Part shown: positions 32,043 to 37,300 of the stretch, piece by piece
How positions within the stretch are numbered: position 1 is the stretch's first letter
Layout of the letters: the number at the start of each line of letters is the position of its first letter
DNA from: Larus michahellis
Lineage: Eukaryota > Chordata > Aves > Charadriiformes > Laridae
Assembly (NCBI RefSeq): GCF_964199755.1
Contig: NC_133901.1
Location: forward strand, 51,681,324-51,745,323
Direction: 5' to 3'
Length of the DNA stretch: 64,000 bases
The notes under the pieces: model-generated
Seen by the model: only the letters and a program-made list of their open reading frames with translations
What the model was told of the DNA's origin: nothing
Databases searched by the model: none
Translations under genes and position numbers: made by a program

Positions 32043-34098
32043 TGCCTCAGGGATTTATATTCTACACTCTTCTACTCTTTTATTACCATCATTCCTTTAG
32101 TGATTTGCAGCTGTGTGTTAAGTGTGTTAATCTGTATGATTAACACCTACTAGATGTAGTTCTTTTTTTTTCTCTCACATTCTTTTAAGGCAAGAAAGTT
32201 TTATGCTTAAAATTCATGTTCTTTTGGTTTCATTTATCGACTAGCCTGAGAAATAACAACAGGTGATGAGTGAGAAAACAGTGTCACTGAAAAGTTAGAG
32301 AGAACATTATGTAGCAGCAGGCAAAATTAATTCATTTTGACACTTCCATTCAGGTGGGAACACATACACACTCACTCTGCTACTTCATCTACGCACATAC
32401 ACCCCTGTGTTTTTATTCAGACATGAGCGCACGGAGGCTGATGTTCAAAACTTGGTGTGGAAAATTTGTTGGCAAGTGATAATCTTTCAAAATCCCAATC
32501 TTGAAAAAGAAGGTAACAAACAAATACAGTATCAGCAATATGAATAAGAGTCCCACAGAGAGACTCTTAAAATGCTGTTACATACAAGCAGGCCCCTCCC
32601 ATTACCTCCTCTCATTACCAACAGCTAGACAGGATTATTAAATTCTTGTACTCCAGGGCTATGGCAAAGCTATCACCTATTCTGCTCATAACATGCTTCC
32701 AACTCCAGCCATTCTCCCTTCTCCAAGAGCCTTCTGAGTAAGGAACAGCACTTTCATCACTGTGTCATTGTTTGAGCTTTTGAACACTTTCTCCCATGTC
32801 TCATTCTCCATAAGGGTCCTAAGGCAGGTGCCTCTCCTGAAACACAGTGCCTTCTAGAGGGTGCACCCCTAGAGAACTATATTGTCGGAGAGAGTCTGTC
32901 AGGAGACTCCTTGGCTTAGGAAGTGCCCAGAGCTCAGAGGCTCTTATTGGCTGCGGTAAGATTGGACCAATACACTGTTATGAACGCAAAAGTCTTTCCT
33001 GATGTGACTTGATGCTTTCCTACAGGGAGGTTTAGAAATGCAAATCTTGCCTGACAAGACAAAGGGAGGATGTTAGGTCAAAAGAGAAATAAACATGAGG
33101 GAGGCAGAGGTAAGTTGTGTTTCTTGAGCATTAGGAACTGTGGTCTGCGCTAAGACTTCGTCTGTTCTGAAAAAGCCCAGATTACATTCTTTGACAGTGG
33201 AGTGACAACAGCCTCAGTGGTCACCTAAAATGATATCCACTATTTCATCCAAGTGACCCCTGAGCTTCTGCAGCAATATTGCTTCAATCACCTTGCACAG
33301 GAGTTTCCCCTAGTACCTACCTGAAACTTGTCCTTCCTCCCCATCCTCCCCTCCAGCCTGCTGCTCCTAAGTGCTGCCATCTTCTGCAACCTATTTCTTC
33401 ACTTCTCTTCTACCCTTAAAGGTCACCTAGCTCAGGTCTGTATTCCTTTGTCTGTAAGACATTATAGTCTCTCACCCACCCTTCCTGGTCTTGACATTCA
33501 GACGTGATGCCCTGTTTCTTAACTACTTGGTCTGCTGTGTGAAGGCGCCACTCACATTGACACTCCCAAACCAGGTGACTCAAATATTGCTCACAACATA
33601 GCTATGGCAGTGCTCACCAGCCGCCTATGTATTTATCTAACTTAGTAATTTGTACAACCCATGCTGAACAGCCCTATCAGTCCTGGAGCTGGGCTAGGTT
33701 ATTGAAGCTGCTATCCCCTACCTTAGGCTAGCACACAGTACCCTTGCGGGGCCTACAGTACTCAGGGGCATTACAGATATTGAGGCAACACAGGATTTTG
33801 CTGTACAAATATTTCTATACTAAGTCCCAGACCCATCCAACTGGGACACCCAGTTCACTTCTAGGTAGTTACAGCTTCTTTTCACATTTTATTCTAAAAA
33901 AGGAAGGACAGGCATGAAATCTTTTTGTGACTCTCCATGGAGCTGAGAACACGTGCTGCATACGCAGAATTGGAACATGGTTGCTCTGGTTCCCACTTGC
34001 ACTCAAAGAGCTTGCAGCATTTACAGGTCTCCCCGTCAGACGAAACTGAACCCCTTGCCTGCAGCATCCCCGCTGAGTTTGTGGCCAAGGCTGGTTAC

Positions 34099-34308
34099 CT
34101 GCTATCAGAGGCTGGCTGCTGGACTGCCCAAAGTGGGCACCATGATGAAGGAAGGCACTGTAGCAAGGCGTGGACGCATCGTCTGAAAGGGCCATGTGGA
34201 AGGGCTGAAGATCAGCCTGCCCAGAGCCGACCGGCGTGGTGGGGGTGAAAGGGGTGAGAGAGGCTCCATGAGGCTCTTGCTTTATACTGAGGGGAGAGGA
34301 GAGGTTTT
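34099..34308 (-). CDS. PAX2: PAX2 PAX8-like cassette exon, 70 codons
   Basis: This 210-nt open segment has an ACCACAG acceptor, a roughly 100-nt C/T-rich tract upstream on the minus strand, and a GCAG|GTAACC donor. It is phase 1 on both sides, so it can be included or skipped without breaking the PAX2 frame: TYPVVT-E...LIA-GRDMAST when included, TYPVVT-GRDMAST when skipped. The product starts ENLSSPLSIKQEPHGASL, continues through a Thr/Pro-rich stretch (TPFTPTTPVGSG) and ends HHGAHFGQSSSQPLIA. The SPxxIKQE core, the aromatic/Gly/Gln-rich end and the insertion point recall the alternatively spliced exon that distinguishes the long form of PAX8. The IKQE fits the SUMO-acceptor consensus. No equivalent is in the standard mammalian PAX2 protein as I know it. 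The exon structure is direct observation; use in mature mRNA is inferred. Confidence 0.85.
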
Positions 34309-37300
34309 CTGTGGTAGGGTAAGGGATGGACACAGACAGACAAAGGGAACAGGGGGAGGAAGAGGAGGGTGGGGAAGGGAGGAGAGGAAGAACAAAATGG
34401 GTAAATGAAAATGGAGTGGTTAAAATCTACAGGGAAATTAATTTAAAAAAACAAAAATAAAAATAAAAAGGTTAGGAGTAGATCAGAGGAGCCAATGCTG
34501 AGACAACAGCAGTAAATGCACCCGGGGGCTAGGCTCTGACTGCAGGGATGCCTCTGCAGGGGAAGCAGGAGATGAGGAGAATGGAGTGCAGTGGCAGATG
34601 GGAGGAATGGGATGCAGGAAAAGGAGAGGTGAGGGAGGGAACATGCAGGAGACGGAGGACAGGAAGAAGCGTAGGGTTGGGAAGGAGAAGAATGCACTGA
34701 AGCTTCTGTGCTCCCTTTCCTGCTGCTTTCTCTTGCTGGCTGCGGGCGCATGAAGATGCTACACTTACACAGTTTGGCCCAGGGAATGATACCGCTTTGT
34801 CTCTTCAGAACCAAGGTAACCTTCCGCAGGAGAGCAGTGTGGTTATGAGCATCTATTAAACAGGATGCCCGGTTTAATGGCCAAAGCTTCTCAAGCAAAA
34901 CTCCATAAAAGCTTTGACAAAAAAGGTGTAGCTGAAGTTTGAGATGGTTAAAATAAAAATGGGACTGTATAATTAATAGGTGGCTAGACAGATCAACCAA
35001 TTGATCTTGTTCACAGTGGCACACTTTGGAGCTTTAACCATAAAAGTAGTGAGTACTGACTCTGGTTGTTCCCAGAGTATAGTGTTGCCAGACAGATGCC
35101 TTGACAGAGAGATATAATGGACGAGAGGAAACGTGGGGGACTTATAAAAGGTCTCATTTTCATTGTTGTTTGCATTGAGCCTCCATTTCTGATGTGCAGA
35201 TTTGCAACTGCTCCTAACTTGGCTGTCAAGTAAGAGGTTTGGGAATTGGAGAACTCTGACCTAAAGCATGGGTACTCCAGAACACCCACTGTTGTTGGGT
35301 CAGCAGTAATAGAGTCCTGTATTTGAACACCTGAAAGAGAAGTATGGATGATGTGATCAGATCTGATCCAAATCATCTAGCAAACCATCCACCCTCAGGT
35401 AAACAAATTAAAGCCAATAAATGAAAGCCATCTCTCTGCCATGATGGCAAGTGTTTCCAATGGCCTATGAAATAAGTTAGTTCTGGTGGTTTTGATTTAT
35501 ACAGAGAAATATAAATGTGACATATAACTAGGTCATAAATCTGACTTCATCAACGTAGAACTGGCTTAATTAACTCTAGGCACCTTATTGTGAGGGTGCA
35601 ATGCTCACCTAGACAATAAAGGGCTGGTCAGTTTCTATCTGTGAATGCTGTTTAACCTGAGGCATTTGTTTCCTAAAGGTTTGCTACCTGGCAAAAATGA
35701 TACTTTGCCATCTGTGTTCTCCTCCAAGTACCTCTAACCTGGATGGCCAGCAAAGGTCTCTGATCACAGAGACGCCTTTGCGGCAAAGACATATGTTTAT
35801 GGTTCAGTTGATTGGGAAGGATCAGTCCTTGCCAAAAGGTGTACAGTTCCTCTTTATTTAGTTTACTTATGTGAAGTCTCTGGTATGCTAAGTGAGGATT
35901 CTCACCTCTTCTCCCTTTTTGCTATAGGAAGCTCTGTTTGGCAGTGACCTTTTGTGGAGGATAGAAGCTGGAGTATCTGGTTCTTGTTGCACAGTTAAAG
36001 TCACCAGAGTAGGCAGCACATCAGCACCCAGCTTCTGATTTTTACAACTATATACTGTCCTACAATCCTACCAGTGAGCCTTCACATGCCAGTGCCAGTC
36101 TCAGTAGATGGAGAACCCCCAAAGCTATTTTTCTCCTGCATCTTCTGTCATCAGATCGTAAGGGCTGCACAGATTTACCTTTAGACCAGACAGGCAGAGT
36201 CACCTCCAGCAGTCTGGGAGTGCTGAAGCCTTTATCCGAATAAAGTTGATAGTAGATAATCTGGATGAATAGATTTATCTGCAGGCAGAGGGCCAAAAGT
36301 TCCCCTGGCTTTCAGGGGCTCCACGTGAAGTGATATTTTTTCAAGGAAGCCATTTCACAGTCATACTTAAATAAGCTTGGGACACTTTGGTCCTGGGAAT
36401 TTTCCAGGCTCCTTTTTCAGCTCTCCGTACTGTGCAAGAGAGAGCAGGTGCAGGGAGCCGCTGGGGAGGAAAGGGCAGAGAAGAAGATGGACTCAGGTAG
36501 CATGGGGGGGCAGAAGCAAGAGGTGCTGTGGGCAGAGGTTAATCCTGTTTGCACAGCCCCCAGGCACATTGGGTTTCCTAGTCCCTCCCCTGCTTTATTT
36601 CTCTTTTAAAGCATGGAATTTTCAGCTATAATCCTTCCTAAACCGCAGCATTTTTCAGGCACTCTGTGTAAGTGAAACCATAATCTCTGGTAAAACAGAC
36701 CGCTTAAGCTGCTGTAGCATTAGGCCAATCTGATCCAGCCCCTGGATTTCCGCTCTGCCCAGCCACCACGGAGGGGATTTTAGTCTGAAAGACTGTCTAA
36801 AGCCCTTGCAATGGGAACAACAGTGCTAGGCCTTGCCTTGCAAAGCTGAGAAGGGTTAAGGGACCAGGAGCTATTTGTCCCGGTGTTGTGAGGCTGTTAA
36901 AGCCCCTGTCGGGCTCACAGCGGAGATGAGCCCAGCCCTCTCTTGAACACATCAAGGCTTATGAAGAAAAATTCCTCGCGCCTTCCAGAGGCAGCACCAC
37001 TTTCTCAGTGCAGGGGGGGGATAAAGAAGTCAACAGTAACATGGCAAAGAGACTGGGACACAATCATGCTAAACACTCTTCTCTCTAACAGTAGTGGAGT
37101 GGAGGCGAGGATAAGGTCAGACAGCGAATGATTGCACAAACAAAACTCAGACTTTTATGTGTCTATTTATCTATCTGTCTGTCTTTTCCTCTATGCTGTG
37201 CAACTGCACAGACATAACTTATATTCCGTGTATTACTGGTGGATGCCATTTACCAATTTAACTCCTTTGTTGTCCAACTCTCCCCAGACTAAAAGTACCT

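Follow-up and report, generated by a model that had tools for sequence, protein, structure and literature searches.

PAX2 exons in the window

The window analyzed here, a 64,000-nt stretch of the Larus michahellis genome, contains the 3′ half of PAX2, encoded on its minus strand. PAX2 exons were located with a human PAX2 sequence as query, and their borders were then set on the DNA; they are numbered here as exons 7, 8, and 9. The host gene was identified as PAX2 since human PAX2 is 75–95% identical over exons 7–9 and PAX8 scores lower, and it is not PAX5, which sits on a different contig of the same assembly.

Read along the minus strand, the window contains exon 7 (48911–48736, 176 nt), which includes a second SUMO-type motif (IKSE), exon 8 (46887–46761, 127 nt), which ends in QTYPVVT at phase 1, a cassette exon of PAX8 type (34308–34099, 210 nt, phase 1-1; identified by frame, database matches, and PAX8 homology), exon 9 (30377–30276, 102 nt), a further coding exon (24337–24251, 87 nt), and the final coding exon up to the stop (22913–22837, 77 nt). 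A preliminary description of this DNA had placed the cassette at these coordinates with AG/GT borders, and had all three exons joining in one frame with or without it. Position, length, borders, and phase all agree on the minus strand, and exon 8, the cassette, and exon 9 are open in both joins. From exon 7 to the stop, the coding sequence spans 259 residues with the cassette and 189 without, and the protein that includes it reads ...QTYPVVT-ENLSSPLSIKQEP...SQPLIAG-RDMAST... A Pfam scan of three proteins (the cassette itself, the longer open frame that holds it, and the frame of exon 8) returned no family at E ≤ 10. Across the last PAX2 exon, an alternative C-terminal frame (PHPGAPHLPLLPLPMTATSYHGNHMKLQGDSLGLHIVPV; 22895–22776, minus strand) is also open, with 39 of 40 residues matching bird models.

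The cassette in other PAX2 proteins

A protein search scored on the cassette returned 48 of 67 candidates at E ≤ 0.01, all of them vertebrate, of which 44 are named Pax-2 and four are hypothetical proteins. Birds account for 22 of these records, from 20 species, and the others come from crocodilians (4), amphibians (6), the coelacanth (1), and ray-finned fishes (15); several of the bird records are identical to the window across all 82 scored residues. The cassette follows exon 8 in 39 of the 48 (by pattern search) and continues into exon 9 in 46. Public databases, then, already include it in PAX2 entries from many non-mammals; most of these are gene models, in which exons can be transferred by homology. 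Among the 48 matches, no named record comes from a mammal, turtle, squamate, or shark, although with 90% clusters and a shared-word search this is weak evidence of absence. When the longer frame of the cassette was used instead, 3 of 235 candidates passed E ≤ 0.01: one metagenome ORF (P0001) and two frog proteins bearing the Pax2 C-terminal domain.

The preliminary description had proposed that sauropsid PAX2 kept this exon. Birds and crocodilians do have it, but it is not restricted to sauropsids, since Pax2 proteins of amphibians, the coelacanth, and ray-finned fishes have it as well.

Homology to the PAX8 exon

The same description had matched the cassette to the alternatively spliced transactivation exon of PAX8, and this match is borne out by both sequence and place. 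In a tblastn search, human PAX8 matched the cassette with an E-value of 1.3e-7 in an alignment that extends into both introns. Against each of five PAX8 exons, the score of the window cassette was reached by 0 of 1000 shuffles. Profiles of the Pax2 exon (14 chosen sequences) and the PAX8 exon (22 extracted sequences, identical ones removed) could be aligned in 68 of 71 columns, with 35% identity and a score of 77.4, compared to 11.7 for the reversed control and 18.8 for the best of 200 column shuffles. Placement is also the same, between an exon ending in YPVV and an exon starting with GR[DE]M, as read from DNA in the window and from proteins for PAX8.

Searching with the PAX8 exon yielded 41 matches among 159 candidates. 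Their sources are mammals, the tuatara, a turtle (Emydura), and two frogs, with nine further records unnamed; birds, crocodilians, and squamates are absent from the named ones. The tuatara PAX8 (Sphenodon, P0075) has the exon, at 81% identity to the human one. When 14 Pax2 and 9 PAX8 exons were placed in an unrooted tree, the PAX8 exons formed one clade with a support of 100, while deep Pax2 nodes were weak (23, 35, and 44). The PAX8 exon, of the form DPHSPFAIKQE...QALLSG, shares with the Pax2 cassette the psi-K-Q-E motif, a T-P, Gln, and the final Gly. However, it belongs to a separate gene, is only ~35% identical, reads KQETP-E-SSSSSTP where Pax2 reads KQEPH-EAS-APFTP, and has a shorter middle part in several PAX8 records. 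The PAX8 exon is among those that are used differently by isoforms a–f of the gene.

Within the gull assembly itself (1.405 Gb, 616 contigs), the cassette has one strong match (E 7.4e-42), the next being at E 1.72. It is homology that raises the cassette above chance, through the database proteins, the PAX8 shuffles, and this single genome match, and on that homology the segment 34308–34099 is a real exon of PAX2 in birds.

A candidate SUMO motif in a predicted disordered segment

The motif psi-K-Q-E fits the consensus for SUMO attachment. It occurs in all 50 Pax2 sequences that could be scored (P0002–P0051; P0001, which is without that half, was left out) and in 40 of 41 PAX8 sequences. In a set of 23 Pax2 and PAX8 exons, eight positions never vary, and K-Q-E accounts for three of these. 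In the window the motif reads P-L-S-I-K-Q-E-P, i.e., a psi-K-x-E with nearby prolines, and this proline-flanked form is found in 33 of 48 Pax2 matches and 38 of 40 PAX8 sequences, so that it is common and not universal. A further motif, IK[SPA]E, is encoded by exon 7 in 42 of the 48 Pax2 matches.

The SUMO-acceptor lysine of PAX8 lies at about residue 309. The PAX8 SUMO site lies very probably within the exon homologous to the cassette, because psi-K-Q-E is the sole [VILMF]KxE of the protein in 27 of 28 full-length-like PAX8 proteins and because Pax8 stability is reported, in a passage of PMC3485284 citing de Cristofaro 2009, to need sumoylation. The window motif also fits the description in PMC3554661 of a synergy-control motif, in which proline or glycine residues flank the SUMO motif, Nurr1 being an example; in PAX2 it is a candidate motif identified by sequence.

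A structure model of P0005, built from a 26-row alignment, gave pLDDT values of 33–38 over the cassette (mean 45.6), with only the paired-domain part confident and low pLDDT covering most of the protein outside it. As modeled, the cassette is probably a 70-residue disordered segment of the activation region, located just before the conserved Pax2 C-terminus. Skipping it would yield the standard PAX2, while inclusion would provide a longer activation region and a second SUMO-acceptor motif (psi-K-Q-E-P). Splicing could thereby set whether PAX2 bears SUMO control of stability or synergy, much as PAX8 very probably does through its homologous exon. We infer from sequence that splicing is switched in this bird, that PAX2 is sumoylated, and that transcription is affected. 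Overall, we consider it likely that an ancestral exon of PAX8 type was kept in PAX2 and acts as a splice-controlled activation/SUMO module.

Less probable, although deserving of weight, is that the ancestral exon is real and yet encodes a simple spacer or activation stretch, or a Ser/Thr-Pro phosphorylation region, with K-Q-E kept for a reason other than SUMO. A Thr-Pro is as invariant as K-Q-E over the 23 exons, Pax2 shows little or no variation in DAS-P and PFTP, and PAX8 splice forms with differing transcription properties are described in PMC9266416. Against this stand the invariance of K-Q-E itself over the same exons and its status as the only SUMO-type motif in nearly all PAX8 proteins (27/28), together with the reported sumoylation of Pax8 cited above.

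Origin of the exon and fate of PAX8

Given that homologous sequences occupy the same place in PAX2 and PAX8, a single ancestral exon is indicated, and by these alignments the cassette predates the PAX2/PAX8 split. The preliminary description had gone further and assigned the exon to the common ancestor of PAX2, PAX5, and PAX8. Homology to PAX8 upholds an age greater than the PAX2/PAX8 split, and PAX5 of this genome was found without the exon: 60 kb around PAX5 (contig C41), including the 29.4-kb intron between the matching exons, contained no copy of the cassette. The best score in this region was 6.2 bits vs 118.1 for the window cassette, which rules out a PAX5 copy here. The common ancestor of PAX2 and PAX8 would have had the exon, which was then kept in Pax2 by ray-finned fishes, the coelacanth, amphibians, crocodilians, and birds, with PAX5 of this genome being without it. 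Its distribution fits a loss from mammalian PAX2, and such a loss is probable.

PAX8 was not found in the assembly, taken to be complete, by searches with tuatara PAX8 and with a PAX5 tail. The tuatara query had 19 matches, of which just two fell in the GR[DE] exon, namely those of PAX2 (contig C10) and PAX5 (C41), and its paired-domain matches were all at ≤91% identity. With the PAX5 tail, C41 and C10 each had three matches, and a third contig, C39, had two weak ones (E 0.06). We conclude that the assembly has no PAX8 because only PAX2 and PAX5 carry a well-scoring GR[DE] exon and no paired-domain match exceeds 91%. This agrees with the loss of PAX8 in birds reported in PMC3759438, PMC2946559, and PMC3207924. 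As the tuatara retains PAX8, the losses reported for squamates and birds look independent.

One alternative account of why the exon persists, possible though somewhat doubtful, is that bird PAX2 kept it as a substitute for the lost PAX8, each amniote line keeping the exon in one gene. This is in line with the lack of a detectable PAX8 in this genome and the PAX8 loss reported for birds, and with mammals, a turtle, and the tuatara having the exon in PAX8 while none of them is a named record among the PAX2 matches. Conversely, fishes and amphibians have the exon in Pax2, and frogs have it in PAX8 too, so that loss of PAX8 is not required for its retention. Squamates, for their part, are reportedly without PAX8, and no squamate is among the PAX2 cassette matches; moreover, absence from shared-word lists of 90% clusters is weak evidence.

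Phrased as a rule, reciprocal retention would mean that amniote lines each kept this splice-controlled SUMO/activation module in one gene only, a proposal that we advance tentatively. Its specific form, with the exon in PAX8 in mammals, turtles, and tuatara and in PAX2 in archosaurs after PAX8 loss, is the same reading and is put forward with the same reserve. If it were true, the conserved thing would be the availability of one exon and no particular paralogue, and squamates, with PAX8 reported lost and no PAX2 exon seen, would provide its test or its exception.

Both PAX2 and PAX8 act as master regulators in kidney and ear, with a further such role in eye for PAX2 and in thyroid for PAX8. 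An ancient exon in bird PAX2 that is apparently absent from mammalian PAX2 provides a testable reason why bird PAX2 might do the job of PAX8, and through splicing this master gene of kidney, eye, and ear may gain a site for protein modification. One paper proposes that the chick otic placode depends on Pax2 alone for its specification and lists mouse Pax2 constructs for work in chick; such constructs would be without the cassette segment. A literature search found no paper on the PAX2 cassette, the likeliest older papers being outside its reach, and we do not claim that the exon is unpublished; the connection to PAX8 in birds and the interpretation of the cassette as SUMO-related are what we did not find in print.

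Splice sites and further splice forms

The cassette borders are CACAG/AAAACC at the start and GCAG/GTAACC at the end. Its acceptor tract has pyrimidines at 16 of 20 positions, and its donor (CAG/GTAACC) has no G at +5. With a simple frequency matrix, this donor scored 3.41, compared to 7.17, 4.96, 6.61, and 3.68 for exons 7, 8, 9, and 10, making it the weakest scored, and it still ranks in the top 2.1% of all GTs of that strand. Between exons 8 and 9, the intron of 16,383 nt contains 538 segments of 60–300 nt that are open in phase 1 and bounded by AG..GT, of which 18 are ≥180 nt with a tract of ≥65% pyrimidine, and because of these 18 comparable segments the cassette is not beyond chance by frame and splice sites alone. 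These segments and the donor without G at +5 leave room for a pseudo-exon, i.e., a chance open frame with cryptic splice sites, but that reading is refuted by homology, with sequence and position kept from fishes to birds and in PAX8, and we assign it a negligible probability.

Judging from database gene models, the cassette looks like a splicing hub. A shorter form (34099–34286, minus strand) would use an acceptor 22 nt inside (CCCCTCAG/TATAAAG), as in the Pluvialis model P0029. A possible 70-nt alternative exon lies before the cassette (35261–35330, minus strand) with AG/GT borders; its product, GVQIQDSITADPTTVGVLEYPCF, matches P0029 at all 23 residues, and only splicing to the inner acceptor at 34286 puts this exon in frame. 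Past the cassette donor, a possible read-through ending (33869–34098, minus strand) has a stop at 33869–33871 and an AATAAA at 33893; the Oxyura models P0020 and P0022 end in this way, and a PAX2 of this kind is without the conserved C-terminus.

Residue differences, which served in place of dN/dS, were compared between the cassette and this read-through. Relative to the duck Oxyura models, 1 of 70 cassette residues differed vs 10 of 68 residues in the read-through that follows (Fisher p 0.004, for P0020). Relative to the metagenome ORF P0001, 1 of 33 cassette residues differed vs 12 of 68 (p 0.055, not significant). Since differences are fewer in the cassette than in the read-through, sequence constraint appears to fall off at the cassette donor.

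Mammalian PAX2 has alternative exons of its own, namely a 69-nt exon 6 and an alternative C-terminal frame. The gene is the same, and the alternative C-terminal frame is open in the window too, but these exons are other than the cassette, and exon 6 has no convincing match within the window. In two amphibian orders (Rhinatrema P0039, Ambystoma P0044), an extra segment, ASxxFRND...ACYR.P, precedes the cassette; it has no match in the window. Exon 5 (KRKRD.) is joined directly to the cassette in the birds P0021 and P0024 and in the cyprinid fishes P0046 and P0047, an unusual join that keeps the frame because exons 7 and 8 together measure 303 nt. In a whale PAX8 record (P0079), KRKLDD is likewise joined directly to the exon, the intervening exons being skipped.
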